Under the pieces are notes generated by a model. That model had not been told where the DNA came from. It worked only from the letters and a program-made list of their open reading frames with translations, and did no database searches. The position numbers and the translations under genes are program-made. 64,000 nt of DNA from a virus, in IMG/VR virus record IMGVR_UViG_3300047585_000133, positions 1 to 64,000 of that record; one strand, written 5' to 3'. Each line of letters opens with the position of its first letter. Position 1 is the stretch's first letter. Of the stretch, positions 33,690-43,468 are shown piece by piece.

Positions 33690-34368
33690 GGTAGGCCCGG
33701 ATAGGCTACCGGCGGGTAAGCTACCGGCGGGTAACCGGCTTAGAAAACTAATTCCACTAGTGCAACCTAAATACCCTAACTACTACTATAGACAATAAAT
33801 TTTTTCTAAAAATTATTAGTAGTTAGTACTTATAGGTGTTGCAGTTAGCGAACGCCACGCGGCTACTGATAGTCACTACGCGGCCACTTAAAGTGATAGT
33901 GCAATTCTTCCGAGAGCCAGTGCAATTCTTTGTGCACTGAAAGTGCGATTCTTTTGTTCGATATACGCGGCTGACCTGGAGTTAGTGCAATAGTGCAGTT
34001 CTTTTGCCCTGGTATGAGCTACGCGCGATGCTAAGGCTAAGTTACGTAATCGTCAGTTCACTCTTAGTCACTACGCGGCCGGTCTCCCCGTGATGTCCGA
34101 TTTGACTTATTTGAGAGCTTCGTCCCTCCGCAGATTTTCTCAGAGGATCCGGGCAAAAATAACTGCACTATTGCACTTCTTGCAGCTAGCATTACTTAAA
34201 TCGAATACAGGTTCTGCACTTTTAATTGCACGGGTCTGCACCAGACGGCCGAGAATTGCACGGATCTCCGTCACGACCCGGACTCGGTTATGGTGACTGC
34301 TACCCTGGCCAGCCTCTTTGCGGCAATCTGGCCTAGTCAGTCCCGTGCGTCACCATAAGGAGTCTTCC
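33690..34368. repeat. AT-rich non-coding region with direct and inverted repeats (candidate origin or control region)
   Basis: About 680 bp without a convincing gene, much less GC-rich than the rest. Holds a tandem 15-bp repeat GCTACCGGCGGGTAA (33705-33734), a 10-bp inverted repeat CTAACTACTA / TAGTAGTTAG around an A/T-only core (33776-33826), four AGTGCAATTCTT-like direct repeats (33898, 33919, 33942, 33992), and a perfect 17-bp inverted repeat AGTGCAATAGTGCAGTT (33984-34000 with 34161-34177). CTACGCGGC recurs at least three times. Transcription diverges from it on both sides, as at replication origins or master control regions. A 68-codon frame at 34090 looks spurious. Confidence 0.6.
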
Positions 34369-34611
34369 GTGAGCGTTACTGCGCCCGTACCCAGAGAGGG
34401 CGGCGACCGCCTGTTCACCCCGGCCGAGGTGGCGGCGATCTTCCGGGTCGACCCCAAGACGGTCACCCGCTGGGCAGCTGCCAGACCTCCCCGGATCCGC
34501 TCAATGCGTACCCCGGGCGGCCACCGCCGGTTTCCCGAGTCCGAGGTCTACCTGCTGCTGAACGGGCAGGTCGCGGGCACCGCCCAGCAGTTATCAAGAA
34601 AACCTGTATAA
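34369..34611 (+). CDS. bldC-like: BldC/MerR-like helix-turn-helix regulator, 80 aa
   Basis: GTG 34369 follows AAGGAG. Core is LFTPAEVAAIFRVDPKTVTR then WAAARPPRIRSMRTPGGHRR and FPESEVYLLLNG, the BldC/excisionase winged-helix pattern with TPGGHRRF recognition loop. In Streptomyces BldC binds DNA cooperatively on direct repeats and holds back sporulation genes; the direct repeats just upstream of this gene are a natural candidate target. A promoter-like motif overlaps its last codons and points at the tRNA array. Confidence 0.85.
   Translation: MSVTAPVPREGGDRLFTPAEVAAIFRVDPKTVTRWAAARPPRIRSMRTPGGHRRFPESEVYLLLNGQVAGTAQQLSRKPV
34591..34610 (+). promoter_or_regulatory. Recurrent promoter-like motif, copy 4 (entry to the tRNA array)
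   Basis: TTATCAAGAAAACCTGTATA overlaps the end of the BldC-like gene. Nothing but tRNAs and tiny ORFs follows for 8 kb, so this is the best visible promoter for the tRNA array. Confidence 0.6.
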
Positions 34612-34706
34612 AAGTCTTGCTGGTTGGCGAGAGAGGATGGTACGGTTTGAACATGCCGCCGGGGAACCGGCGGACAGCAGACCCCAGCAGTCCAGGACAA
34701 GGAAGC

Positions 34707-34823
34707 ATGGAACTCTCCGCCTCACCCGTTTACCAGCCGTCGTGCTGGCTGAAGGCGCATGACGCCGTCAGCTTCCAGCCCGCGACTGGAAGGGGCAGTG
34801 AGCGCCGGGGGCTCCCCGGGTAG
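34707..34823 (+). CDS. Possible micro-protein, 38 aa
   Basis: ATG 34707 has CAAGGA upstream; product MELSASPVYQPSCWLKAHDA and on to a basic end. It sits between the array promoter and the first tRNA. No homology recognised and codon signal is weak; could be leader RNA without coding function. Confidence 0.3.
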   Translation: MELSASPVYQPSCWLKAHDAVSFQPATGRGSERRGLPG

Positions 34824-34907
34824 GACCTTACGAGGAACTTGCCCAGGAGCCGCCAGCGGAGAGAAAACCGCAGGCGGCTCCTCTGGTTCCCGGGTACAAC
34901 TGAACAT

Positions 34908-34975
34908 GCGAGTAGCCGCTGGGCGGTAGCCGGTCTCCAAAGCCGGCAAGCTGGGTTCGACTCCTGGTACTCGTG
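34908..34975 (+). tRNA. tRNA-Trp (CCA)
   Basis: Anticodon arm CCGGT-CTCCAAA-GCCGG; acceptor GCGAGTA pairs with TACTCGT; discriminator G. D-arm is short (total 68 nt). Confidence 0.8.
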
Positions 34976-35405
34976 CTGGTCCGCGAGGACCTTGCCACCG
35001 GCTGACGGGCGAGAGCCCCGAGGACGGCAACCGGCTCGACTTTTCTCATCTCAACAGCGGAACACGATGCGGCAGGGTGCCAACCTGCCGCACGGTGACC
35101 AGCGGACTGGCCCCTGCCCCGGTATGGTGGCGGAGGAGATCTCCGTACGACCTTTACGGATGGTTCAGGGCACGAAACAAACGGGGCAGGAGCCAGCCTG
35201 CCGGTCACCCAGATTTCGGCGCGGTGAAAGACAATGCAGCTACTCCCGGGGAGCAGCGGCCGTTAAAGGCCGGGGACGTACCGTCAAGGATGGTTCCTGT
35301 ACCGGGCACCGCGCCAGCAAGACTCCCCTCCTCCCGGTGTGCTCACACCCGCCGGGACAAGGGAGCCGTGGGCCCGTCCCTGCTTGCGGGGTCGGGCTCC
35401 ACCAC
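34976..35405 (+). other. 430-bp spacer in the tRNA array without recognised gene
   Basis: No tRNA or convincing ORF. Contains an 8-bp hairpin GCGGCAGG / CCTGCCGC with a 7-nt loop (35069-35091), and a GGAGCC...GGCTCC hairpin just before tRNA-Ala. Could be leader or processing RNA. Confidence 0.4.
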
Positions 35406-35478
35406 GGGGCCTTGGCGCAGCTGGTAGCGCGTCTGCATGGCATGCAGAAGGTCAGGAGTTCGACTCTCCTAGGCTCCA
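35406..35478 (+). tRNA. tRNA-Ala (GGC)
   Basis: Arm TCTGC-ATGGCAT-GCAGA; acceptor GGGGCCT/AGGCTCC with the G3:U70 alanine identity pair; discriminator A; no encoded CCA. Confidence 0.9.
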
Positions 35479-35790
35479 CGAGGGGGCGGTGCGGGTTCGA
35501 ATCCTGCCCGGCGGGAGAAATCCCAACGGTAGCTCAATGGCAGAGCAGCCCCCGTCAGTTTGGGCAGGATAAACCGGGCGAAACGTAGATGATCCCGGTG
35601 GAGCGGGGACGGCAGGCCGGCGGAACATCGTGCCTGTGGTACTTGGTTGTCCTGGACCGGGAGGGTACCCCGGACGCAAACCTGGTAGGTGCCGTCGTGA
35701 AACACGGCCGTGAGTAGCGGCGGCAACTGCCCGGCGGGCGCCGCGAGCCCGTTAATAGGAAACCGGACCGAGGATTCCGGACGCGGACCT
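35479..35790 (+). other. Spacer with orphan T-arm and a separate D-arm-like segment
   Basis: An unattached T-arm-like stem-loop GCGGGTTCGAATCCTGC lies at 35491-35507, then GGTAGCTCAATGGCAGAGC (a D-arm-like segment) at about 35527-35545 without a matching 3' half. The order, 3' half before 5' half, is that of a permuted tRNA, but the possible acceptor pairing is poor; tRNA debris is more likely. The remaining about 240 bp show no gene. Confidence 0.4.
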
Positions 35791-35865
35791 GGGCTGTTAG
35801 CTCACCGCAGGTAGAGCACTGCACCCGCAATGCAGAGGTACCCGGTTCGAGCCCGGGACGGTCCA
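35791..35865 (+). tRNA. tRNA-Ala (CGC)
   Basis: Arm CTGCA-CCCGCAA-TGCAG, with C instead of U at position 33. Acceptor GGGCTGT/ACGGTCC includes G3:U70; discriminator A. Followed by an orphan T-arm-like hairpin near 35876-35894. Confidence 0.85.
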
Positions 35866-35990
35866 CGGGAGGAAGACGCAGGGTTCGATTCCATGCCCGG
35901 CCGCTTGGGAGGCCGGCGCTCATGCGAGTACGCGTTGCGGAAAGCCTGCGCCGGCCGCGTCCGGTACCTCAGGGCAGAGGACTCCGTCAC

Positions 35991-36063
35991 GGGGAAGTAG
36001 CTCAGCTGGAAGAGCACCCGCCCTGCAAGCGGGATGTCAGGGATTCGAGTTCCCTCTTCTCCA
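35991..36063 (+). tRNA. tRNA-Ala (TGC)
   Basis: Arm CCCGC-CCTGCAA-GCGGG, C33. Acceptor GGGGAAG/CTTCTCC with G3:U70, discriminator A. Standard D- and T-arms. Confidence 0.9.
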
Positions 36064-36114
36064 CGTCGGCCTCTGGAATCCCCGGGAGAATGATCTCCCG
36101 CCATGCCGGCTCCA

Positions 36115-36188
36115 CGGGATATTGCGTAGTGGTAGCGCGCCTGGTTTGGGACCAGGCGGCTGGGGTTCGATTCCCTGTATCCCGACCA
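36115..36188 (+). tRNA. tRNA-Pro (TGG)
   Basis: Arm CCTGG-TTTGGGA-CCAGG; acceptor CGGGATA/TATCCCG; discriminator A and CCA encoded. Confidence 0.92.
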
Positions 36189-36258
36189 GTCGCCTGGAGC
36201 TGGCTCAAGCTCCCTGGTTTCCCCCGAGCAGGGAGCTGGTCCCGGAAGCACCGGGAGG

Positions 36259-36324
36259 GCGGCGTTAAGTCCGGTACACGGCTGCGGCGCACGGGACATT
36301 CCGGTTCGACTCCGGATCGCCGCA
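36259..36324 (+). tRNA. tRNA-like element without canonical D/anticodon arms (66 nt)
   Basis: Acceptor GCGGCG/CGCCGC and a perfect T-arm TCCGG-TTCGACT-CCGGA are present, but the 34 nt between form GTCCG...CGGGAC around a large loop, with no standard 5+7+5 anticodon arm. Pseudo-tRNA or tRNA-like RNA. Confidence 0.45.
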
Positions 36325-36434
36325 GTGCAGTAGGCCGCGTTGCCCCTAGCAAGCGGGCGCCGAAAAACCGCCTGGAGCGGCAGTAGCTTGCAGGTGACCG
36401 GGACGCGATCGCGACGTGAGCCCGGCACCGTCAA

Positions 36435-36508
36435 CGGAGCGTAGCTCAACTTGGCAGAGCACTCGGCTGGGGGCCGAGCGGTTGCGCGTTCAAATCGCGC
36501 CACTCCGA
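36435..36508 (+). tRNA. tRNA-Pro (GGG)
   Basis: Arm CTCGG-CTGGGGG-CCGAG; acceptor CGGAGCG/CACTCCG with one C-A mismatch; discriminator A. Confidence 0.88.
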
Positions 36509-36584
36509 CGTGAGGGCCTAGGGCCGGGTAACCGGCTGGCGCGATATACGACCTAGGGAGCGGGAGCACTGGTACCCCGCATAT

Positions 36585-36659
36585 CTGGCTATGGCGCAGC
36601 TTGGCTAGCGCGCTGCCTTCGGGAGGCAGAGGTCCCCAGTTCAAATCTGGGTAGCCAGA
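36585..36659 (+). tRNA. tRNA-Pro (CGG)
   Basis: Arm CTGCC-TTCGGGA-GGCAG; perfect acceptor CTGGCTA/TAGCCAG; discriminator A. With TGG and GGG, most Pro decoding is covered. Confidence 0.92.
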
Positions 36660-36795
36660 CGAGACCCAAAGGCCACGGGTCTGCTGGAACGCGGGTTCGC
36701 TACCTGCGTTGGATGCAAGGTGTAGGGCGCACAGGGGCGCGCGGACGCCCAGAGCCGGGGGAAACCCGGTAGCTGGGTGGTCACGGGCCTCGGGG

Positions 36796-36812
36796 CCGGG
36801 TTCAACTCCCGG
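36796..36812 (+). other. Orphan T-arm hairpin
   Basis: CCGGG-TTCAACT-CCCGG is a perfect T-arm, but no matching acceptor or anticodon arm could be built from the 110 bp upstream. Confidence 0.4.
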
Positions 36813-36879
36813 GGCATCGCTGGATCTCAAAGGCCCAAGTGAGGCGGAAGATAGGGCCACGCCCTGCCGGAGATCTTAT

Positions 36880-36953
36880 GGTCGCTTAGCTCAGTTGGAA
36901 CGAGCGCCTGATTGAAACCCAGGAGGACCCCCGTTCGGCTCGGGGAGTGACCA
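36880..36953 (+). tRNA. tRNA-Phe (GAA)
   Basis: Arm CCTGA-TTGAAAC-CCAGG (last pair A-C); acceptor GGTCGCT/AGTGACC; T-arm CCCCG-TTCGGCT-CGGGG; discriminator A. Confidence 0.85.
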
Positions 36954-37007
36954 CGGTGACGGAGTACTACGTCACTTGGGCCCTGTGGTAAGCGCACCAC
37001 AGGGAAA

Positions 37008-37068
37008 GCGGTTGGCAGGCTACGCCAGCTCCTCCGGGGGCGAGCCGGGTTCAAAACCCGGGACCGTG
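37008..37068 (+). tRNA. Degenerate tRNA-like element (61 nt)
   Basis: D-arm TGGC...GCCA and perfect T-arm CCGGG-TTCAAAA-CCCGG exist. The anticodon arm GCTCC...CGAGC has an 8-nt loop, and only about 5 acceptor pairs form. A 9-bp hairpin CCCTGTGGT/ACCACAGGG (36981-37004) precedes it. Amino acid cannot be assigned. Confidence 0.4.
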
Positions 37069-37107
37069 CGATGCCGTGACCCTGTCGATCGCAGGATCAC
37101 CACGGCA

Positions 37108-37129
37108 GCCGGGAAAGAACTTTCCCGGC
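37108..37129. terminator. Inter-tRNA hairpin
   Basis: Perfect inverted repeat GCCGGGAAAG / CTTTCCCGGC separated by 2 nt. No T-run; probably an RNA-processing or stability hairpin rather than a terminator. Confidence 0.4.
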
Positions 37130-37203
37130 GCGAAGGTTGCCGGTAACCCCTGCGTTAAAGGGAGGCAGTTCCGTTGCAACGGACTGCCGTGGAACTGGAC
37201 CAT

Positions 37204-37274
37204 GCGGATGTCGTCCAACGGCAGGACAGCAGCCTTCCAAGCTGCTGATGCGGGTTCGAGTCCCGTCTTCCGCT
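37204..37274 (+). tRNA. tRNA-Gly (TCC)
   Basis: Arm GCAGC-CTTCCAA-GCTGC; acceptor GCGGATG/CTTCCGC with one T-T mismatch; discriminator T. Confidence 0.92.
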
Positions 37275-37471
37275 CTACGGCACGACGCCCCGCCTGGCTC
37301 CGCCCAAATGGTACCCAGGGGGATACGGCCGGGAGAGTAGCGCTCCTCCCGGTAAGCCGGCCTGTTGCAACGGGCCGGACTTCGTGCCGCCCGGGTGATC
37401 CTGCCGGAGCCCCTGTGAGCCCTGCCGCAAGCGGGGCAATACCAGGCTCCCCGGCGGGACTCCGGGACCCT

Positions 37472-37544
37472 GCGCCGCTAACTCAACTGGCAGAGTACCG
37501 TCCTCTTAAGTCGGGAGTTGGGGGTTCAAGTCCCTCGCGGCGCA
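37472..37544 (+). tRNA. tRNA-Lys (CTT)
   Basis: Arm CCGTC-CTCTTAA-GTCGG (one T-T mismatch); acceptor GCGCCGC/GCGGCGC; discriminator A. Confidence 0.88.
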
Positions 37545-37546
37545 CT

Positions 37547-37618
37547 GAAGGAATGCTGAAGGCCAAACCCGGGGCTGGTGCCGACGAAGAGGCCTCCTGC
37601 CACCAGCAGCATTCCTTC
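37547..37618. repeat. Inverted repeat spanning an inter-tRNA spacer (12 bp)
   Basis: GAAGGAATGCTG (37547-37558) and CAGCATTCCTTC (37607-37618) are perfect complements and bracket the spacer between tRNA-Lys and tRNA-Leu. Confidence 0.7.
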
Positions 37619-37622
37619 TCAC

Positions 37623-37696
37623 GGGCAAGTAGCAGAACGGCATATGCGGCGGATTCAAGCTCCGCGCTCTTACGGGTTCGAATCCCGTCTTGCCTA
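37623..37696 (+). tRNA. tRNA-Leu (CAA)
   Basis: Arm GCGGA-TTCAAGC-TCCGC; acceptor GGGCAAG/CTTGCCT; discriminator A. The variable loop is short (about 7 nt), unusual for a leucine tRNA. Confidence 0.8.
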
Positions 37697-37776
37697 CGTG
37701 CCGGGTCGCTCCCGGCGGAGCAGGGGATCGTGCACAGGACCCGTCCTGCCCAGTGGACCGGGGAAGTGCTCACCAT

Positions 37777-37848
37777 TGGAGTATGGCGTAATCGGCAGCG
37801 CGCCGGGTTCTGGTCCCGGCGGTCTAGGTTCGAGTCCTGGTACTCCAG
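37777..37848 (+). tRNA. tRNA-Gln (CTG)
   Basis: Arm CCGGG-TTCTGGT-CCCGG; acceptor TGGAGTA/TACTCCA; discriminator G, as usual for Gln. Confidence 0.93.
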
Positions 37849-37916
37849 CGTGATCGTCGGAGTTTCGTTGGCAGGATCCCAGTCCTGCACCTGGGCAACT
37901 TCGCCGGCGGTCTTAT

Positions 37917-37989
37917 GCCCCTGTAGCTCAGACGGAAGAGCAGTGCACCCGTAATGCACAGGCCAGCGGTTCGAAGCCGCTCGGGGGCT
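37917..37989 (+). tRNA. tRNA-Thr (CGT)
   Basis: Arm GTGCA-CCCGTAA-TGCAC, with C33; acceptor GCCCCTG/CGGGGGC; discriminator T. Confidence 0.88.
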
Positions 37990-38123
37990 CGTAGTGCAAC
38001 ACCGGAGACCTCGGTCTCGCATGCACGTCCGGGTAGCGCAAGGTGGAACCGTCCGGCGGTTAGAAGGAGCGAGGTACAGGCGGGGCTCCCGCGACGGCTA
38101 GGGATGAGGCCGTCACCACGATC

Positions 38124-38186
38124 GTGATCCTGGTCAGGCCCAGGTGTGCGAGTGGCCATAGGCATGAGGGCCGCCGCCAGGATCAC
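38124..38186. repeat. Inverted repeat in inter-tRNA spacer (10 bp)
   Basis: GTGATCCTGG (38124-38133) and CCAGGATCAC (38177-38186); the right arm ends 3 nt before tRNA-Leu(GAG). Confidence 0.65.
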
Positions 38187-38189
38187 CAT

Positions 38190-38274
38190 GTCCGTGTGGC
38201 GAAATGGCATACGCGCCAGCTTGAGGTGCTGGTGCCCCGCGAGGGGTGTGAGGGTTCGAGTCCCTCTTCGGACA
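38190..38274 (+). tRNA. tRNA-Leu (GAG)
   Basis: Type II tRNA: arm CCAGC-TTGAGGT-GCTGG, long variable arm, T-arm GAGGG-TTCGAGT-CCCTC; acceptor GTCCGTG/TTCGGAC with one mismatch; discriminator A. Confidence 0.9.
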
Positions 38275-38449
38275 CATGGTGGGAGATCCCGGTGACGGGC
38301 TAACCGGGGCGGATTGCGTCCAGCGGTCTGCTAGCTCAGGGCCGCTTCTGGACAGAAGAGCCCCACCTTACACGCCTCTGGCTCCAACGAGCGGGCGTCC
38401 CCTGTACGGACACCAGCCCGGGGTGGCACCGGGTGGAGGCTCCATTCGA

Positions 38450-38520
38450 TCCGGGATCGTTTAACGGCAGGACGCGGTATTTTGAGTGCCGCTGTGTTGG
38501 TTCGAGTCCAGCTCCCGGAA
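38450..38520 (+). tRNA. tRNA-Gln (TTG)
   Basis: Arm CGGTA-TTTTGAG-TGCCG; acceptor TCCGGGA/TCCCGGA; discriminator A. Confidence 0.9.
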
Positions 38521-38532
38521 CGAAAGTCACAT

Positions 38533-38605
38533 GCCCGGATAGCTCAGTTGGCAGAGCATGCGCATGGTAAGCGCAAGGTCATCGGTTCAAATCCGTTTTC
38601 GGGCT
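38533..38605 (+). tRNA. tRNA-Thr (GGT)
   Basis: Arm TGCGC-ATGGTAA-GCGCA; acceptor GCCCGGA/TTCGGGC; discriminator T. Confidence 0.92.
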
Positions 38606-38617
38606 CGCATTAAATAT

Positions 38618-38689
38618 GTCGGCGTAACTCAGCGGTAGAGTGCGGCGTTGCCAACGCCGTTGTCGCGGGTCCGAATCCCGTCGCCGACT
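38618..38689 (+). tRNA. tRNA-Gly (GCC)
   Basis: Arm CGGCG-TTGCCAA-CGCCG; acceptor GTCGGCG/CGCCGAC. T-loop is TCCGAAT instead of TTCGAAT; discriminator T. Confidence 0.9.
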
Positions 38690-38911
38690 CTATGGGGTAC
38701 CAGATCTCTGCTGGCCCAAAGCCCGAGCCATGGCACAGAGCATCCTCCGAGGCCGGACGCGGCCGACGGGGACCCCATTTCAGGCAGGTACAGGATCAGT
38801 ATGGTCTGGCAAAGCGGCGGAAGTCGCCATTCTCCGGAGAACGCAACCTGACCTGACTCCCTATCCGACTCCCGGGACGGATCCAGACAAGGGGGATAAG
38901 TCCCGGGGCAT

Positions 38912-38983
38912 GCGACCGTAGTGTCAAAGGCAGCACACGACCTTCCCAAGGTCGGTGAGCCGGTTCGAATCCGGTCGGTCGCT
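38912..38983 (+). tRNA. tRNA-Gly (CCC)
   Basis: Arm CGACC-TTCCCAA-GGTCG; acceptor GCGACCG/CGGTCGC; discriminator T. The 222-bp spacer before it shows no gene. Confidence 0.92.
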
Positions 38984-39100
38984 CACCTGACACCAGCATC
39001 AGGCTCCGCGAGCCGCCTGCCCCAAGGTTTCCGGGCAGATGAGACTACGGTTGCCCAAAGGTATCTTCAAGCGGACTCCGGGCTGGCGGGGTCCGTCCAT

Positions 39101-39185
39101 GGGCGTGTGGTGGAACGGCAGACACGCTGGCCTCAGGTGCCAGTGGCCCGGAAGGGCCGTGAGGGTTCGAATCCCTCTTCGCTCA
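39101..39185 (+). tRNA. tRNA-Leu (CAG)
   Basis: Type II: arm CTGGC-CTCAGGT-GCCAG, variable arm with GGCCC/GGGCC, T-arm GAGGG-TTCGAAT-CCCTC; discriminator A. Confidence 0.92.
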
Positions 39186-39288
39186 CAAAGCCGCTGGCGA
39201 CGCGGCGGCCTGGCATGGCGGGATCAGCATTTCCAGGATGCCCGCCTGACCATTTACCCCAAGCCTGGACCCGGGGGAGCGTCGTAAT

Positions 39289-39373
39289 GGAGAGTGAACC
39301 GGACGGGCGTCCGGGCTTCGCTGCTAACGAATGCGCGCTGTGAAGGCGTGGGTTTCGAGTACTCCGCTCTCCG
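39289..39373 (+). tRNA. tRNA-Ser (GCT)
   Basis: Type II: D-stem CCGG/CCGG, arm around CTGCTAA, acceptor GGAGAGT/GCTCTCC, discriminator G. T-stem TGGGT/ACTCC has one mismatch. Confidence 0.82.
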
Positions 39374-39806
39374 CTCGACGGGCTGTAAGGAACGGGTTGT
39401 TCCGGCCGGCAAGACGGGTTCGAGTCCCGTACAGTCCACGCGGGGTTCGATTCCCCGCTACGGGTGCTGCGACCCGTGCCAGGCTCCGGCCGCGAAGCGC
39501 TCCCAGGGGCGACCGCAGATTATGGAGAGGTCGCCTAGTCTGGCCTATGGCGCCGCGTCGGAAGCGCGGTCGGGGTAACCCTCGCGAGTTCGAATCTCGC
39601 CCTCTCTGCCACTCGCCGGCAGCCATGTCCAGAGTGAGCACCTCCTGCTGGCCGGGGGTCGTGAAGATGATCTCCACGCCGAACTCCCCGTGCTTGCCCT
39701 CCACCATGAAGAGGGCCCTCTTGATCATGGTCACCACAGGGAGCGCAGCCGCGTCTGGATTCTTCAGCCCCCGGACCGTCACGGTCACCTTTATCTCGCC
39801 TTCCAC
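39324..39806 (-). CDS. Antisense small protein inside the tRNA array; first about 67 aa look genuine
   Basis: GTG 39806 opens MEGEIKVTVTVRGLKNPDAA then LPVVTMIKRALFMVEGKHGE and FGVEIIFTTPGQQEVLTLDM, a convincing beta-alpha protein. No stop occurs before the frame enters the antisense of tRNA-Ser(GGA), after which residues are shadow-like until 39324. Either the protein carries a tRNA-derived tail or a stop was lost. Function unknown. Confidence 0.5.
   Translation of the reverse strand: MEGEIKVTVTVRGLKNPDAAALPVVTMIKRALFMVEGKHGEFGVEIIFTTPGQQEVLTLDMAAGEWQRGRDSNSRGLPRPRFRRGAIGQTRRPLHNLRSPLGALRGRSLARVAAPVAGNRTPRGLYGTRTRLAGRNNPFLTARRAESGVLETHAFTARIR
39380..39438 (+). tRNA. Armless tRNA-like element (59 nt)
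   Basis: Full acceptor GGGCTGT/ACAGTCC with G3:U70 (an alanine-type acceptor), T-arm ACGGG-TTCGAGT-CCCGT and discriminator A. A single hairpin GGAAC-GGGTT-GTTCC replaces both D- and anticodon arms. Looks like a structured acceptor/T minihelix rather than random decay. Confidence 0.55.
39440..39458 (+). other. Orphan T-arm hairpin after the armless element
   Basis: GCGGGG-TTCGATT-CCCCGC is a perfect T-arm-like stem-loop directly abutting the 3' end of the preceding element, with no other tRNA parts. Confidence 0.45.
39524..39611 (+). tRNA. tRNA-Ser (GGA)
   Basis: Type II: arm CCGCG-TCGGAAG-CGCGG with C33; acceptor GGAGAGG/CCTCTCT; discriminator G and encoded CCA. Confidence 0.9.
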
Positions 39807-39821
39807 CCCGGAAGGCTATCT

Positions 39822-39904
39822 GGCGAGGTCGCACAGTGGCCTAGTGCGCTTGCTTCGAAAGCAAGTGGGGGCGACCCCCGTGAGTTCGAATCTCACCCTC
39901 GCTG
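39822..39904 (+). tRNA. tRNA-Ser (CGA)
   Basis: Type II: arm CTTGC-TTCGAAA-GCAAG; acceptor GGCGAGG/CCTCGCT; discriminator G. Confidence 0.93.
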
Positions 39905-39906
39905 CT

Positions 39907-39983
39907 CTGTCCCGGCCGCTCACTTCGCGTGCTTCGAGGTTTCGTGAGCCTCCCTCTTTTAGGTCGCACACGAGCCGGGACAG
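39907..39983. repeat. Inverted repeat spanning an inter-tRNA spacer (10 bp)
   Basis: CTGTCCCGGC (39907-39916) and GCCGGGACAG (39974-39983) enclose the spacer between two serine tRNAs. Confidence 0.7.
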
Positions 39984-39988
39984 GTCAT

Positions 39989-40071
39989 GGCGGGGTCGCC
40001 TAGCGGCCTAGGGCGCCGGCTTTGAAACCCGGTGAGGGGAACCTCCGTGGGTTCGAATCCCACCTCCGCTG
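39989..40071 (+). tRNA. tRNA-Ser (TGA)
   Basis: Type II: loop TTTGAAA; stem CCGGC/CCCGG with one mismatch; acceptor GGCGGGG/CTCCGCT; discriminator G. With GCT, GGA and CGA this covers all Ser codons. Confidence 0.9.
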
Positions 40072-40269
40072 CTAGACGCCCGTGCGGGTGCGCCTGGTGT
40101 TCCAGTTGCCCGCGCCCCAGCCGGACCCGAACCCGGCGGCGGCGAGCGCGAAGAAGGCGAGCCCGATGGCGATGATCCCGACGACGACGGTCAGCGAGAT
40201 GCTGTGGACGCCGACGATCGCGATGATCGCGGCGACGATGAAGGCGAGGACGGCAAGGCCGTAGGTCAT
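40072..40269 (-). CDS. Small two-helix membrane protein, antisense within the tRNA array, 65 aa
   Basis: ATG 40269 with AAGGAG upstream. Two hydrophobic helices (YGLAVLAFIVAAIIAIVGVH and LTVVVGIIAIGLAFFALAAA) and a basic C-terminal tail (NWNTRRTRTG). Its stop abuts the 3' end of tRNA-Ser(TGA) on the other strand. A hairpin CATGCTCCT/AGGAGCATG and a CCCCGGAAG element (40310-40318) lie in its leader. Confidence 0.7.
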   Translation of the reverse strand: MTYGLAVLAFIVAAIIAIVGVHSISLTVVVGIIAIGLAFFALAAAGFGSGWGAGNWNTRRTRTGV

Positions 40270-40328
40270 GACATGCTCCTTCTACTGGAGGAGCATGCGC
40301 TCCCCGGTGCTTCCGGGGCGCGCACCAC

Positions 40329-40402
40329 GGGCGTGTAACTCAGATGGTCAGAGTACTTCCCTGATAAGGAAGAAGGCGCTGGTTCAAGTCCAGCCTCGCC
40401 CA
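40329..40402 (+). tRNA. tRNA-Ile (GAT)
   Basis: Arm CTTCC-CTGATAA-GGAAG; acceptor GGGCGTG/CTCGCCC with one mismatch; discriminator A. Confidence 0.92.
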
Positions 40403-40472
40403 CCGGCACGCAGCGATCATCTGAGCCAGGACGTTCCGGAGACACGGCTGTACCGGGCGCTGCGAGCCTCAC

Positions 40473-40545
40473 GGCGGTGTAGCTCAGTCGGCAGAGCACC
40501 CGACTCATGATCGGGTTGCCGGTGGTTCGATCCCACCTACCGCTA
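40473..40545 (+). tRNA. tRNA-Met (CAT), elongator type
   Basis: Arm CCCGA-CTCATGA-TCGGG; acceptor GGCGGTG/TACCGCT; discriminator A. A lysidine-modified Ile reading is possible but less needed, as an Ile(TAT) gene follows. Confidence 0.88.
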
Positions 40546-40547
40546 CC

Positions 40548-40623
40548 GGGGGCGTATCCCCTCTGCCTTATAAGCAGTCGAAAGGGTAACCGGTGCAAGC
40601 GGGTTCAAGCCCCGCCGCCCCTA
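40548..40623 (+). tRNA. tRNA-Ile (TAT), atypical D region
   Basis: Arm CTGC-CTTATAA-GCAG gives TAT for the rare ATA codon. Acceptor GGGGGCG/CGCCCCT and T-arm GCGGG-TTCAAGC-CCCGC are sound. The D-arm is not recognisable and the variable region is long (about 20 nt). Confidence 0.7.
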
Positions 40624-40624
40624 C

Positions 40625-40695
40625 GCCTCTCTAGCACAATGGAATGCAGCGGGCTTTTACCCCGTGGAGTCAGGGTTCAAGTCCCTGGGGAGGCA
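40625..40695 (+). tRNA. tRNA-Lys (TTT)
   Basis: Arm GCGGG-CTTTTAC-CCCGT; acceptor GCCTCTC/GGGAGGC; discriminator A. Starts 1 nt after the previous gene. Confidence 0.9.
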
Positions 40696-40699
40696 CTGA

Positions 40700-40773
40700 G
40701 CGCCAGTAGCTCAGCGGAACAGAGCGGCTGGCTTCTATCCAGCTGGTCGGGGGTTCGATTCCCTCCTGGCGTA
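40700..40773 (+). tRNA. tRNA-Arg (TCT)
   Basis: Arm GCTGG-CTTCTAT-CCAGC; acceptor GCGCCAG/CTGGCGT; discriminator A. Confidence 0.92.
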
Positions 40774-40857
40774 CGTGAACGGCCGCGCTTAAAGACGGCC
40801 CCGTGGACCCGCAGCTAGCGGCGGGGACTCAGAGACTCGTCGGTCAAGCAGTCCTAT

Positions 40858-40929
40858 GGTCCTATCGTCTAGCGGTCAGGACGGCTGCTTCTCAGGCAGC
40901 TGACGCGGGTTCGACTCCCGCTGGGACTA
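40858..40929 (+). tRNA. tRNA-Glu (CTC)
   Basis: Arm GCTGC-TTCTCAG-GCAGC; acceptor GGTCCTA/TGGGACT; discriminator A. Confidence 0.92.
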
Positions 40930-41109
40930 CGAACACGGGTAAGCGCGCTTGGCCTTTACCGGACCGATCATCCGGGTAACGGCCTGGAGACCCTGAAGGG
41001 CGAAGCCTCGGCTATGAGGGCTTGTTATGATCCTCCTGTGAAGCAGGGAAATCGCCCTGGGACCGGCGGTACATGGCACGCCCGGGGACCCGCCTGCAAC
41101 GCGCACCAA

Positions 41110-41181
41110 GCCCCCATCGTCTATTGGTTAAGATCGCGGCCTTTCAAGTCGCGGAACGGGGTTCGAATCCCCGTGGGGGAG
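41110..41181 (+). tRNA. tRNA-Glu (TTC)
   Basis: Arm GCGGC-CTTTCAA-GTCGC; acceptor CCCCCA/TGGGGG plus a 1-72 G-A mismatch; T-arm CGGGG-TTCGAAT-CCCCG. Confidence 0.9.
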
Positions 41182-41212
41182 CAAGGCCGGGACTGTTATC
41201 CTGGTCGTGCGA

Positions 41213-41287
41213 CGCGGAGTGGGGAAGTTCGGTGTTCCCGCTGGCCTCATAAGCCAGAGATCGCTGGTTCAAATCCAGCCTCCGCTA
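41213..41287 (+). tRNA. Initiator tRNA-fMet (CAT)
   Basis: Arm CTGGC-CTCATAA-GCCAG. Acceptor CGCGGAG/CTCCGCT has the unpaired C1-U72 that marks bacterial initiators, and the D-arm starts TGGGGAAG. Initiator tRNAs are seldom carried by phages. Confidence 0.85.
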
Positions 41288-41298
41288 CGAGAGAAGCA

Positions 41299-41349
41299 GG
41301 TGCTAGCGCTCTTACGTCCGGACGTACTGGGGGCCTGTTCGCTAGCACC
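41299..41349. repeat. Inverted repeat after the initiator tRNA (10 bp)
   Basis: GGTGCTAGCG (41299-41308) and CGCTAGCACC (41340-41349); a TACGTCCGGACGTA palindrome lies in the loop. The rest of the spacer to 41481 shows no gene. Confidence 0.65.
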
Positions 41350-41481
41350 GGACCGTGACCGGCTGCCCGGCCGGCTCTCGCAACGGGCAGGCCCATCCGG
41401 ATGGCAGTACGGGTGTCAGCAGACCCCCTCGCGCTGCGGGCCGAAGCGGGGGACCAGAATCTTCTAGTGCGAGGAGAAATC

Positions 41482-41559
41482 ATGCGAGAAAAAGACCCGG
41501 CTCCGTGCGGCGCCTGCGGGCAGGTACACGACGGGCCGTGCCCTGGCCAGGGCGGCTGA
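41482..41559 (+). CDS. Cys-rich micro-protein, 25 aa
   Basis: ATG 41482 is preceded by GAGGAG at 7 nt. Product is MREKDPAPCGACGQVHDGPC followed by PGQGG: a CxxC...H...C set that could bind one zinc. It ends 8 bp before tRNA-Asn. The strong ribosome site and Cys pattern support a real gene. Confidence 0.5.
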   Translation: MREKDPAPCGACGQVHDGPCPGQGG

Positions 41560-41567
41560 ACGAACGA

Positions 41568-41641
41568 TCTCCGGTAGCTCAATCGGCAGCAGCAGCGTCC
41601 TGTTAAGGCGATGGTTCCAGGTTCGAGTCCTGGTCGGAGAG
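41568..41641 (+). tRNA. tRNA-Asn (GTT)
   Basis: Loop CTGTTAA with 4-bp stem CGTC/GGCG; acceptor TCTCCGG/TCGGAGA; discriminator G. Confidence 0.88.
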
Positions 41642-41718
41642 CTGTGCGGTCCTGCCCGCGCCGACACCACCCGGGATGCACGGGGAGGGAAGCACCCGGC
41701 GGGGTGCAGCAGGATCAT

Positions 41719-41792
41719 GGTTGTGCAGAGCAGACGGAGTGCTCGCCTCCCTGTCAAGGAGGAGATCACGGGTTCGAGTCCCGTCACGACCG
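41719..41792 (+). tRNA. tRNA-Asp (GTC)
   Basis: Arm CCTCC-CTGTCAA-GGAGG; acceptor GGTTGTG/CACGACC; discriminator G. Confidence 0.93.
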
Positions 41793-41834
41793 CTGAGGGG
41801 AAGGTCATTACCGGGCGGCAGGACACCTTCCCCT

Positions 41835-41969
41835 TCAGTCCAGCCCGGCGCGGCGCCGGAGTTCGCGGTGGGCAACCTGGCTGACGTTCAGGATGGCGCG
41901 CCAGCCGCCGTACCACTTGCCGACGGCAAGTCCGACAAGTAGACCGACGACCAGGCCTGCGAGGAACAT
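41835..41969 (-). CDS. Single-helix membrane micro-protein, antisense in the tRNA array, 44 aa
   Basis: ATG 41969 has GAAGGT and GGAGG upstream. N-terminal helix MFLAGLVVGLLVGLAVGKWY is a clear membrane anchor, followed by a basic tail (HRELRRRAGLD). The stop overlaps an inverted repeat GGGGAAGGT/ACCTTCCCC (41797-41833) that could end its transcript. Confidence 0.6.
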   Translation of the reverse strand: MFLAGLVVGLLVGLAVGKWYGGWRAILNVSQVAHRELRRRAGLD

Positions 41970-42006
41970 ACCTTCAACGGTACCTCCGGCCGAAGTGCCT
42001 GACTAC

Positions 42007-42081
42007 GGGTGTTTAGCTCAGCGGGAGAGCGCTGTCTCGACAAGGCAGAGGCCGCAGGTTCGATCCCTGCACCACCCACCA
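42007..42081 (+). tRNA. tRNA-Val (GAC)
   Basis: Arm CTGTC-TCGACAA-GGCAG with C33; acceptor GGGTGTT/ACCACCC with one mismatch; discriminator A and CCA encoded. Confidence 0.88.
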
Positions 42082-42204
42082 GCAGCATGGGCTCTACCCG
42101 GTGATCTCCAGGGGCCGGCAGTTTCGTTCTAGACTCCGGGGCGGCTGGCGGAAGGTCCGAAGGCGGTAATCCTGGTTAAGCCGCCCGAATAGCCCATGCT
42201 GCTG
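42080..42204. repeat. Inverted repeat spanning an inter-tRNA spacer (14 bp)
   Basis: CAGCAGCATGGGCT (42080-42093) and AGCCCATGCTGCTG (42191-42204), the longest of the spacer repeats, between tRNA-Val and tRNA-Arg. Confidence 0.75.
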
Positions 42205-42209
42205 TACAT

Positions 42210-42283
42210 GCCCTCATAGCTCAGCGGACAAGAGCGGCGCGCTACGGACGCGCAGGACGGGAGTTCGAGTCTCTCTGGGGGTA
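42210..42283 (+). tRNA. tRNA-Arg (ACG)
   Basis: Arm GCGCG-CTACGGA-CGCGC; A34 expected to be edited to inosine by host TadA; acceptor GCCCTCA/TGGGGGT; discriminator A. Confidence 0.9.
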
Positions 42284-42309
42284 CGCGAAGGTGGTGTAAG
42301 AGGCCGGCT

Positions 42310-42341
42310 CCGGCCGGGTCCGTGCGCACGGGCCCGGCCGG
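42310..42341. terminator. Very strong GC hairpin
   Basis: CCGGCCGGGTCCGTGC pairs with GCACGGGCCCGGCCGG (16 bp, one G-T pair, no spare loop). No T-run; possibly a transcription pause or attenuator within the array. Confidence 0.5.
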
Positions 42342-42373
42342 ACAGGGGACCTCAAACGGAAGGAGGCGGAACC

Positions 42374-42460
42374 ATGGATAACCGCGCTCCGGACAGCACT
42401 CCCCGGTTCCACCCGGGGCAGTCCTGGCAGAATCCAGGCCTTCGTGCCACGGGCAATTAG
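42374..42460 (+). CDS. Possible micro-protein, 28 aa
   Basis: ATG 42374 has AAGGAGG upstream. Product MDNRAPDSTPRFHPGQSWQN then PGLRATGN; the stop lies inside tRNA-Val(CAC). Good ribosome site, unknown function. Confidence 0.4.
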   Translation: MDNRAPDSTPRFHPGQSWQNPGLRATGN

Positions 42461-42522
42461 CTCAGCGGGAGAGCGCTTCGTTCACACCGAAGAAGTCGGC
42501 GGTTCGAGTCCGTCATTGCCTA
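42451..42522 (+). tRNA. tRNA-Val (CAC)
   Basis: Arm CTTCG-TTCACAC-CGAAG; acceptor GGGCAAT/ATTGCCT; discriminator A. Confidence 0.92.
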
Positions 42523-42524
42523 CC

Positions 42525-42600
42525 GGGTCGTGATCCATATGGCTGAGGAAACGGTTTGTGAGACCGTTATTGACGGGTTCGAATCCCGTACGACCCTCCA
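42525..42600 (+). tRNA. tRNA-His (GTG)
   Basis: Arm ACGGT-TTGTGAG-ACCGT; acceptor GGGTCGT/ACGACCC; CCA encoded at 42598-42600. The usual extra G at -1 is not obvious in the gene. Confidence 0.88.
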
Positions 42601-42601
42601 T

Positions 42602-42686
42602 GGCAGGTTACTCAAGCGGCAACGAGGGCGGCCTGTAAAGCCGCTGGCCCAGTCCTGCGCTGGTTCGAGTCCAGCACCTGTCACCA
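42602..42686 (+). tRNA. tRNA-Tyr (GTA)
   Basis: Type II: arm GCGGC-CTGTAAA-GCCGC, variable arm, T-arm GCTGG-TTCGAGT-CCAGC; discriminator A and CCA encoded. Confidence 0.93.
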
Positions 42687-42687
42687 T

Positions 42688-42761
42688 GCACCTGTAGCTC
42701 AGCGGACAGAGCGCCGGTTTCCGGAACCGGGTTGCCGGGGGTTCGAGTCCCTCCAGGTGCA
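42688..42761 (+). tRNA. tRNA-Arg (CCG)
   Basis: Arm CCGGT-TTCCGGA-ACCGG; acceptor GCACCTG/CAGGTGC; discriminator A. Confidence 0.93.
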
Positions 42762-42762
42762 C

Positions 42763-42912
42763 GTGCATCCCCAGGGCCGCCGGCTAACCATTGGCCGGTT
42801 ACAACAGCCCCCTGCTCAGTCCTCATGGACATACATGGCCGGATGAAGGGAGTCCTGGTACCAGGCGGCACCTCCAAGTGCCCGGTACCGGCGGATAGGC
42901 CCGGGGATGCAC
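42763..42912. repeat. Inverted repeat spanning an inter-tRNA spacer (10 bp)
   Basis: GTGCATCCCC (42763-42772) and GGGGATGCAC (42903-42912) bracket a 150-bp spacer that otherwise holds no gene. Confidence 0.65.
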
Positions 42913-42915
42913 CCT

Positions 42916-42987
42916 GACGGGATGGCCGAGCGGCTCAGGCACGCCCCTGCAAAGGGCGATACACGGGTTCGAATCCCGTTTCCGTCT
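42916..42987 (+). tRNA. tRNA-Cys (GCA)
   Basis: Arm CGCCC-CTGCAAA-GGGCG; acceptor GACGGGA/TTCCGTC; discriminator T (U73 is the Cys identity base). Confidence 0.93.
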
Positions 42988-43022
42988 CGGGGACCTGGTC
43001 CGGTGCACCGACGCAGATGCTA

Positions 43023-43095
43023 AGCCCGGTAGCTCAGCGGACAGAGCCGCCGTTTCCTAAACGGAAGACCGAGAGTTCGAATCTCTCCCGGGCCG
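43023..43095 (+). tRNA. tRNA-Arg (CCT)
   Basis: Arm CCGT-TTCCTAA-ACGG; acceptor GCCCGG/CCGGGC plus a 1-72 A-C mismatch; discriminator G. Last tRNA of the array. Confidence 0.88.
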
Positions 43096-43135
43096 CCTGA
43101 ACGTGTTCCGCTGCTGAGCTGCGCCGGGAAGGGTC

Positions 43136-43468
43136 ATGAGCACGCCGATCCCGCCCGATACCGTCGCCCAGGGGCAGACCGGGCACATCGCCGCCCACAA
43201 CTCGATCTCCGACGTCCTGACCCAGTTCGAGAACCAGCTGTCCGCCATTCCCGGCCTCAGCTACGGGACTGCCACCCTCGTCGCCGGGTCGGTGAACGTC
43301 ACCCTGCCGTCGGTGACCACGGGCGTACCCATCCTCGTTTCACGGATGACCCCGGGCGGGACCGTCGGCCACCTGGCCGTTCCTGTCGTCAATAACGGCA
43401 GCGGCTTCACCATCACCTCCAGCTCGTCCGCCGACACCTCCGTGATCGCCTGGCTCGTCCTCGGCTAG
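43136..43468 (+). CDS. Small virion-type protein, 110 aa
   Basis: ATG 43136 follows GGGAAGG, 41 bp after the last tRNA. Sequence is strand-rich with Thr/Ser/Val (TATLVAGSVNVTLPSVTTGV, PVVNNGSGFTITSSSSADTS) and has an N-terminal HIAAHNSISDVLTQFENQLS helix, resembling small capsid or tail decoration proteins. Opens the plus-strand structural cluster. Confidence 0.65.
   Translation: MSTPIPPDTVAQGQTGHIAAHNSISDVLTQFENQLSAIPGLSYGTATLVAGSVNVTLPSVTTGVPILVSRMTPGGTVGHLAVPVVNNGSGFTITSSSSADTSVIAWLVLG

Follow-up and report, generated by a model that had tools for sequence, protein, structure and literature searches.

The reason why phages carry transfer RNA (tRNA) genes has been debated for 50 years. An array that encodes tRNAs for every amino acid together with an initiator lies in the IMG/VR virus record IMGVR_UViG_3300047585_000133. 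The stretch analysed here, called the window, is the first 64 kilobases (kb; 64,000 nucleotides) of this 120,290-base record. What is a complete tRNA set for? The explanation that we favour, at slightly better than an even chance, is that the array is a tRNA supply unit replacing depleted host tRNAs, with an initiator that escapes cleavage and with structured spacers between the genes.

The array encodes 20 isotypes and an initiator

ARAGORN called 39 tRNA genes in the window, every one on the plus strand at 34908–43097, and no tRNA in the remaining 56 kb of this contig. The density is about 4.8 tRNAs per kb (39 in 8.2 kb), and a phage tRNA array is defined by at least 2 tRNAs per kb. All 20 isotypes and an initiator were found by ARAGORN, which agrees with the claim of the initial annotation that every amino acid is covered and places the array among those with the universal 20 isotypes. 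When three runs were combined, 38 of the 39 genes exceeded the cut-off of the Rfam tRNA model. Both counts lie above the roughly 30 high-scoring tRNAs below which the initial annotation would have given up its claim. The only ARAGORN gene below the Rfam cut-off is the Trp tRNA (34908–34976), which reached 25 bits with a related model.

The initial annotation had folded 41 tRNA genes on the plus strand. The array consists of 39 good genes, one probable gene, Ser(GCT), and one degenerate gene, Ile(TAT). Ser(GCT) was detected solely by relaxed ARAGORN and by a sub-threshold match to tRNA-Sec (35.4 bits).

The anticodon loops are regular in most of the array tRNAs, and G3-U70 is retained in all three Ala tRNAs. 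Because most of the tRNAs lack an encoded CCA end, which is rare in the array, and no synthetase was found among the Pfam and PHROG matches of the approximately 88 called open reading frames (ORFs; for PHROG in the window, the best 25 of 42 families), the host presumably provides both charging and the addition of CCA.

Order and anticodons are conserved while tRNA bodies diverge

Relatives were found by protein search and by spacer pattern. Five further IMG/VR lineages (L017, L018, L019, L030 and L031) carry the same array, and two extra contigs are identical copies; the six lineages mentioned below include the window. ARAGORN called 35–40 tRNAs in each relative. Thirty-four isoacceptors are common to all six lineages, and their order is nearly the same in all pairs (Kendall tau at least 0.99). 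The tRNA bodies of the relatives are 40–97% identical to those of the window, slot by slot, a divergence much larger than conserved genes would be expected to show, and the fourfold-degenerate sites of the structural genes are 64, 61 and 59% identical. Position and anticodon are therefore conserved while the tRNA bodies diverge or get replaced. Because 34 isoacceptors stay ordered despite the diverged bodies, selection appears to act on the tRNA set, and six arrays with fixed order and anticodons point to selection for the complete set and not for a few rare codons.

The comparison also bears on single genes. The slot of Ser(GCT) is kept in all six lineages. A normal Ile(TAT) is present at the corresponding slot in L017, L018 and L031, and a canonical tRNA-His occupies the slot of the window tRNA-His in L017, L030 and L031. 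The Thr(TGT) of L018, to which ARAGORN assigned a two-base anticodon, was considered as a decayed gene, and this was rejected since the gene is intact on inspection. Between Val(GAC) and Arg(ACG), three relatives have an odd tRNA-like gene, in which the D-arm is of the Leu type and a regular anticodon loop is lacking (L017 3562–3642, minus strand; L018 10651–10731, plus strand; L019 4101–4180, minus strand).

The array reads 99.2% of the phage codons

Codons were counted in our own crude gene calls, with 21,434 codons in confident genes, and readability was judged under standard wobble. The array tRNAs can read 99.2% of these codons, and the unreadable share is 0.83%. The unreadable codons are ACA, GTA, CTA and TTA, whereas all the remaining sense codons are read. 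Consistently, the anticodons TAC, TGT, TAA and TAG are missing, exactly as claimed by the initial annotation. The TCG anticodon for Arg is also missing, and its codon is covered by ACG through inosine. TTA is not used at all, CTA is used 15 times, ACA 71 times and GTA 91 times, and each of them is the rarest codon of its own box. The array thus comes close to the codon needs of the phage itself.

The rarity of the four unread codons would also be expected if the array served codon compensation, supplying tRNAs for codons that are more frequent in the phage than in its host. This explanation is unlikely, however, because nearly every box is covered, for common and rare codons alike, and isoacceptors are kept for codons that are hardly used (CAA 13 uses, CCA 28, ATA 21 in relatives). 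Moreover, the presence of an initiator cannot be explained by codon bias.

The initiator tRNA carries a flipped base pair at 31-39

The initial annotation had proposed an initiator at 41213–41287 with C1 and U72 unpaired. This was borne out by an ARAGORN call at 41213–41288, which scores 59.1 bits. As in initiators, positions 1 and 72 form no Watson-Crick pair (C1xU72), and position 11 is a purine facing a pyrimidine at 24 (G11-C24). The anticodon stem of initiators has three G-C pairs (29–31/39–41), all with G on the 5' side; in the window initiator the third pair is C31-G39. The pairs 30-40 and 29-41, which are read by A1339 and G1338 of the 16S ribosomal RNA (rRNA) (PMC11497404), are retained.

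Initiator-like tRNAs in large phages are not rare. Five of the six lineages have one, and a search with the window copy found related tRNAs in 56 phage records, many of them annotated as tRNA-Met. The gene as such is consequently less special than the initial annotation supposed when it called the initiator especially unusual, but its 31-39 pair is unusual indeed. The anticodon stem is changed in two relatives as well, with A31-U39 in L019 and with C30-G40 and C33 in L031. C31-G39 was present in 10 of 21 inspected phage initiators, from phages of Actinomycetota, Gammaproteobacteria and Alphaproteobacteria; this count is biased to the query and is no frequency, since most of the 21 had been retrieved with the window copy, which itself has the flip.

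Bacterial genomes and viral sequences were compared with a pattern for the flipped stem. The pattern matched 2 of 299 Pseudomonadota genomes and none of 299 Bacillota genomes (2 of 598 sampled), and at least 120 viral stretches of IMG/VR. As a control, 34 of 40 Pseudomonadota gave a match to the canonical pattern, and the Bacillota control is one genome with four copies. Among the matches listed for IMG/VR, 118 of 121 flip matches are mismatched or weakly paired at 1-72. The ratio of flipped to canonical viral copies is available solely from a narrow pair of patterns, and in this matched context 3 flipped and 14 canonical viral copies were found, which compared with the bacterial 2 in an estimated 254 genomes gives a Fisher p of about 0.002.

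VapC toxins of enteric bacteria cleave the initiator tRNA between A38 and C39 (PMC4105405). In the window initiator, G39 replaces C39 at this bond; among the array tRNAs, the comparison with a known cut site covered the initiator. Because the cut is made at A38/C39 and the 16S rRNA reads 29-41 and 30-40, the flip alters the VapC cut site and spares the pairs read by the ribosome. The G39 initiator may thus still initiate while escaping VapC cleavage. It has been argued that phage tRNAs carry nuclease-site changes and that phages generally avoid encoding an initiator where VapC targets it (PMC10264068), and tRNA replacement or nuclease escape has been argued for other phages (PMC10264068, PMC11555353). 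The C31-G39 flip was described in none of the papers that we found in the open-licence literature. The pattern involves a single base pair and a known cut site and differs sharply between viral and bacterial copies, and so it offers a clean test of nuclease escape.

Host anticodon nucleases could be engaged in another way if the tRNAs served as decoys that titrate them, for which a full set with diverged bodies would offer every target. We regard this as very improbable, since the initiator alters the nuclease bond rather than retaining it, and the elements of charging identity are retained in the inspected Ala tRNAs.

Structured RNAs are conserved between the tRNA genes

Spacers make up about 5 kb of the 8.2-kb array. 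Homologous stretches in relatives were found for 20 of the 32 spacers, covering 64% of the spacer bases, with identities that are often 78–94% and often exceed those of fourfold-degenerate coding sites. When consensus structures were analysed in 19 groups, 103 pairs were changed on both sides, compared with 51.9 in column shuffles (z 7.9, which is a guide only, because the same sequences recur across groups and dinucleotides are not preserved on shuffling). No excess of compensated pairs was observed in several groups, such as the 114-nucleotide (nt) element, Arg-Glu, Pro-Pro2 and fMet-Asn, nor in the coding control spacer (ORF 40072–40269, minus strand).

The RNA in the Trp-Ala spacer is found in all six lineages. 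Its covariation score over six sequences was 0.210 versus 0.127 in shuffled alignments (0 of 500 as high), and was much lower when the structure was slid; its predicted pseudoknot is supported by one compensated pair, and its unpaired stretches are near-invariant. A covariance model of this RNA (R1) gave one match in each of the six lineages and none in the phages E3, Myrna, Dandelion and Mx1. The Trp-Ala spacer has no DNA match in known phages, which otherwise give only short tRNA matches. A 23-base pattern of the RNA had no match in bacterial genomes. An 18-base pattern had 14 scattered bacterial matches, with about 7.5 expected by chance by our own estimate. Scoring of these 14 with the covariance model left four weak partial matches (at most 23.8 bits over 41–43 bases, E 0.002–0.025), which were attributed to chance because all of them lie at the match of the selecting pattern and in unrelated taxa. 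When 34300–43300 was searched with Rfam 15 (E up to 1), nothing except tRNAs was above threshold, and no match to GOLLD or ROOL was obtained. Weak matches to YrlA, Tymo and a plastid untranslated region were rejected as tRNA overlaps or chance.

These data could be read as an RNA-gene island, mainly selected for its structured spacer RNAs, much like GOLLD or ROOL, with the tRNAs maturing alongside. The conserved spacer bases, the excess of compensated pairs and the near-invariant loops of the Trp-Ala RNA in six lineages agree with this, and GOLLD and ROOL occur near phage tRNA islands (PMC12286853, PMC6582537). However, L030 has 15 and L031 has 22 spacers of at least 30 nt, and the tRNAs are kept in both. 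Because L030 lost or never had most of the spacers, most spacer RNAs are not needed for the tRNAs; it is the spacer RNAs that are mostly dispensable and not the tRNA set, which makes an island of this kind improbable.

Some spacers contain remains of tRNA genes. T-arm fragments were found at 35491–35507, 35879–35895, 36300–36316, 36796–36812, 39414–39430 and 39441–39457, that is, 6 in about 5 kb of spacers in the window and 0 in 111 kb elsewhere, which shows that tRNA genes decayed there. A permuted or split tRNA at 35480–35560, considered for the order of its pieces, was rejected and read as debris, since no pairing is possible between its acceptor halves and T-arm pieces of a similar kind occur elsewhere. 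It is conceivable that all spacers are only maturation or insulation hairpins and old tRNA debris, conserved through recombination between related arrays. The T-arm fragments would fit, as would the several spacers whose closing structure spans the whole distance between two neighbouring tRNAs, and the elements that change slot. On the other hand, recent exchange would leave no compensatory changes, and plain hairpins have no need of conserved loops such as those in the Trp-Ala and Arg-Cys RNAs. The probability of this explanation is accordingly low.

A mixed operon deserves more weight, though it stays a tentative alternative. It would contain ten or more classes of structured RNA that Rfam lacks, each class with functions of its own and alternating with a near-complete tRNA set, and phage initiators would repeatedly have flipped the one G-C pair that the ribosome does not read to escape A38/C39 nucleases. 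The spacer RNAs would be a new place to seek phage RNA function, beside GOLLD and ROOL.

Proposed role of the array

From these observations we infer expression and charging of the tRNAs, nuclease escape of the initiator and functions of the spacers in the following way. The array would be co-transcribed as one tRNA supply unit. Soon after infection, its tRNAs would replace host tRNAs that are removed by anticodon nucleases or by a general shut-off, and phage protein synthesis, initiation included, would continue on host synthetases and ribosomes. The initiator, which keeps 29-41 and 30-40 and is changed at 31-39 beside the VapC bond, may initiate and yet escape cleavage. At least some of the spacers probably assist the spacing, folding and processing of the precursor, and others may be RNAs in their own right.

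Several observations weigh against the replacement of host tRNAs by the array. At least one unreadable codon is present in 41 of the 50 confident genes. The initial annotation had proposed that translation could continue even if the host tRNAs were destroyed. The 20 amino acids, the initiator and the 99.2% of readable codons speak for this, but because of these 41 genes, with their ACA, GTA, CTA or TTA codons, strong independence from host tRNAs is unsupported for the sequenced phage; relatives keeping Thr(TGT) come closer to it. Among the tRNAs themselves, the Trp tRNA has a weak Rfam score, the Ile(TAT) of the window is degenerate, and the tRNA-His (42525–42600 in the window; also in L018 and L019) lacks G-1 and C73, and its charging is uncertain. 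As for nuclease escape, the initiator stem is canonical in L017 and L018, and L030 has no initiator.

The phage and the features of the locus

The structural proteins are about 29% identical to those of Rhodococcus phage E3 and the cluster C mycobacteriophages Myrna and Dandelion, and by this measure the phage lies far from any isolate. Genes for head, portal, sheath, tail, methyltransferase and helicase were found in the virus record. It is a large, contractile-tailed soil phage of the Bxz1/E3 kind, probably with an actinomycete host. Such a host is suggested because a BldC-family gene lies upstream of the array in the window and in three related arrays (L017, L018 and L019). The BldC family is known from actinomycetes such as Streptomyces.

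The features of the locus are collected in Table 1. The promoter-like element was not listed by a consensus scan, and its role as a promoter is putative. Within the array, 9 terminators were found against 6.2 expected, few beyond chance. In the right part of the contig, uracil-DNA glycosylase (L016 11449–12060, minus strand) and a GNAT acetyltransferase (L015 19196–19714, plus strand) were matched. The LigT-like RNA ligase and rifampin ADP-ribosyltransferase families were also matched, neither tied to one gene.

Table 1. Features in and around the tRNA array, in window positions
Feature	Position	Strand	Evidence or remark
BldC-family regulator gene, directly upstream of the array	34318..34611	+	NF033787, 82.1 bits (cut-off 77)
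Promoter-like element TTGCTG-18-TACGGT	34617..34646	+	By eye; stretch conserved in L017-L019
tRNA array (39 ARAGORN genes, probable Ser(GCT), degenerate Ile(TAT))	34908..43097	+	Isoacceptor order same in six lineages
Structured RNA of about 100 nt, Trp-Ala spacer, predicted pseudoknot CCYGG/CCRGG	35218..35319	+	6/6 lineages
Conserved 114-nt spacer element, slot differs between relatives	35562..35675	+	Identity 94% L017, 90% L019, 77% L018
Conserved structured spacer Pro-Phe	36661..36879	+	zE -7.4; compensated pairs 14 vs 9.4 expected
Conserved structured spacer Phe-Gly	36955..37203	+	Conservation in relatives, structure
Conserved structured spacer Gly-Lys	37276..37471	+	zE -7.1; compensated pairs 9 vs 4.3 expected
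Conserved structured spacer Lys-Leu, ends pair together	37546..37622	+	6 pairs changed on both sides
Conserved structured spacer Gly-Gly (5' part)	38691..38785	+	Conservation, structure
Probable tRNA-Ser(GCT), enlarged T-loop common to window and L018	39289..39374	+	Relaxed ARAGORN; sub-threshold Rfam
Membrane-protein-like ORF of 65 amino acids, Ser-Ile spacer	40072..40269	-	Conserved in L018
Degenerate tRNA-Ile(TAT)	40548..40624	+	TAT anticodon loop present, proper D-arm missing; no ARAGORN or Rfam call
Initiator tRNA-fMet	41213..41288	+	C1xU72, G2-C71, C3-G70, G4-C69, G11-C24, G29-C41, G30-C40, C31-G39
Structured spacer with 12-bp closing helix, where L017-L019 have the odd tRNA-like gene	42082..42209	+	
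Conserved structured spacer Arg-Val	42285..42450	+	10 pairs changed on both sides
Conserved structured spacer Arg-Cys, invariant loops	42763..42915	+	7 pairs changed on both sides

Comparison with known systems

The cluster C mycobacteriophages Bxz1, Dandelion and Myrna, distant relatives by their structural proteins (about 29% identity), resemble this phage in that each carries about 31 tRNAs, those of the main cluster on a single strand, and an initiator-like Met tRNA. They differ in the order of the tRNAs and in the size of the main cluster (26–29 ARAGORN tRNAs), and Myrna and Dandelion have no match to the Trp-Ala RNA model.

The initial annotation had suggested a comparison with other large tRNA arrays, and complete 20-isotype phage arrays are indeed known already: among virus clusters of 15–37 tRNAs, eight have the universal 20 isotypes (Morgado and Vicente 2019, PMC6409571). 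That paper uses neither the term fMet nor the term initiator. In contrast to those clusters, 39–40 genes are found here in one block, with conserved structured spacers. The mycobacterial tandem tRNA array units (PMC5966550) are likewise ordered, with conserved isotypes and with tRNA sequences that vary within a group, but they also occur in host chromosomes, prophages and plasmids, whereas the window array lies in a free viral contig.

GOLLD and ROOL are, like the spacer RNAs, phage-encoded structured noncoding RNAs beside tRNA islands (PMC12286853, PMC6582537). They are single RNAs of several hundred nucleotides, whereas many small RNAs without an Rfam family lie between the tRNAs here. The T4 tRNA cluster, with its stable RNAs C and D, offers another precedent. 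Phage arrays that combine 20 isotypes with a conserved order and variable sequences are therefore known already, as are structured RNAs beside tRNA islands; the novelty here lies in how many small structured RNAs alternate with tRNAs and in the initiator flip with its contrast to bacterial genomes.

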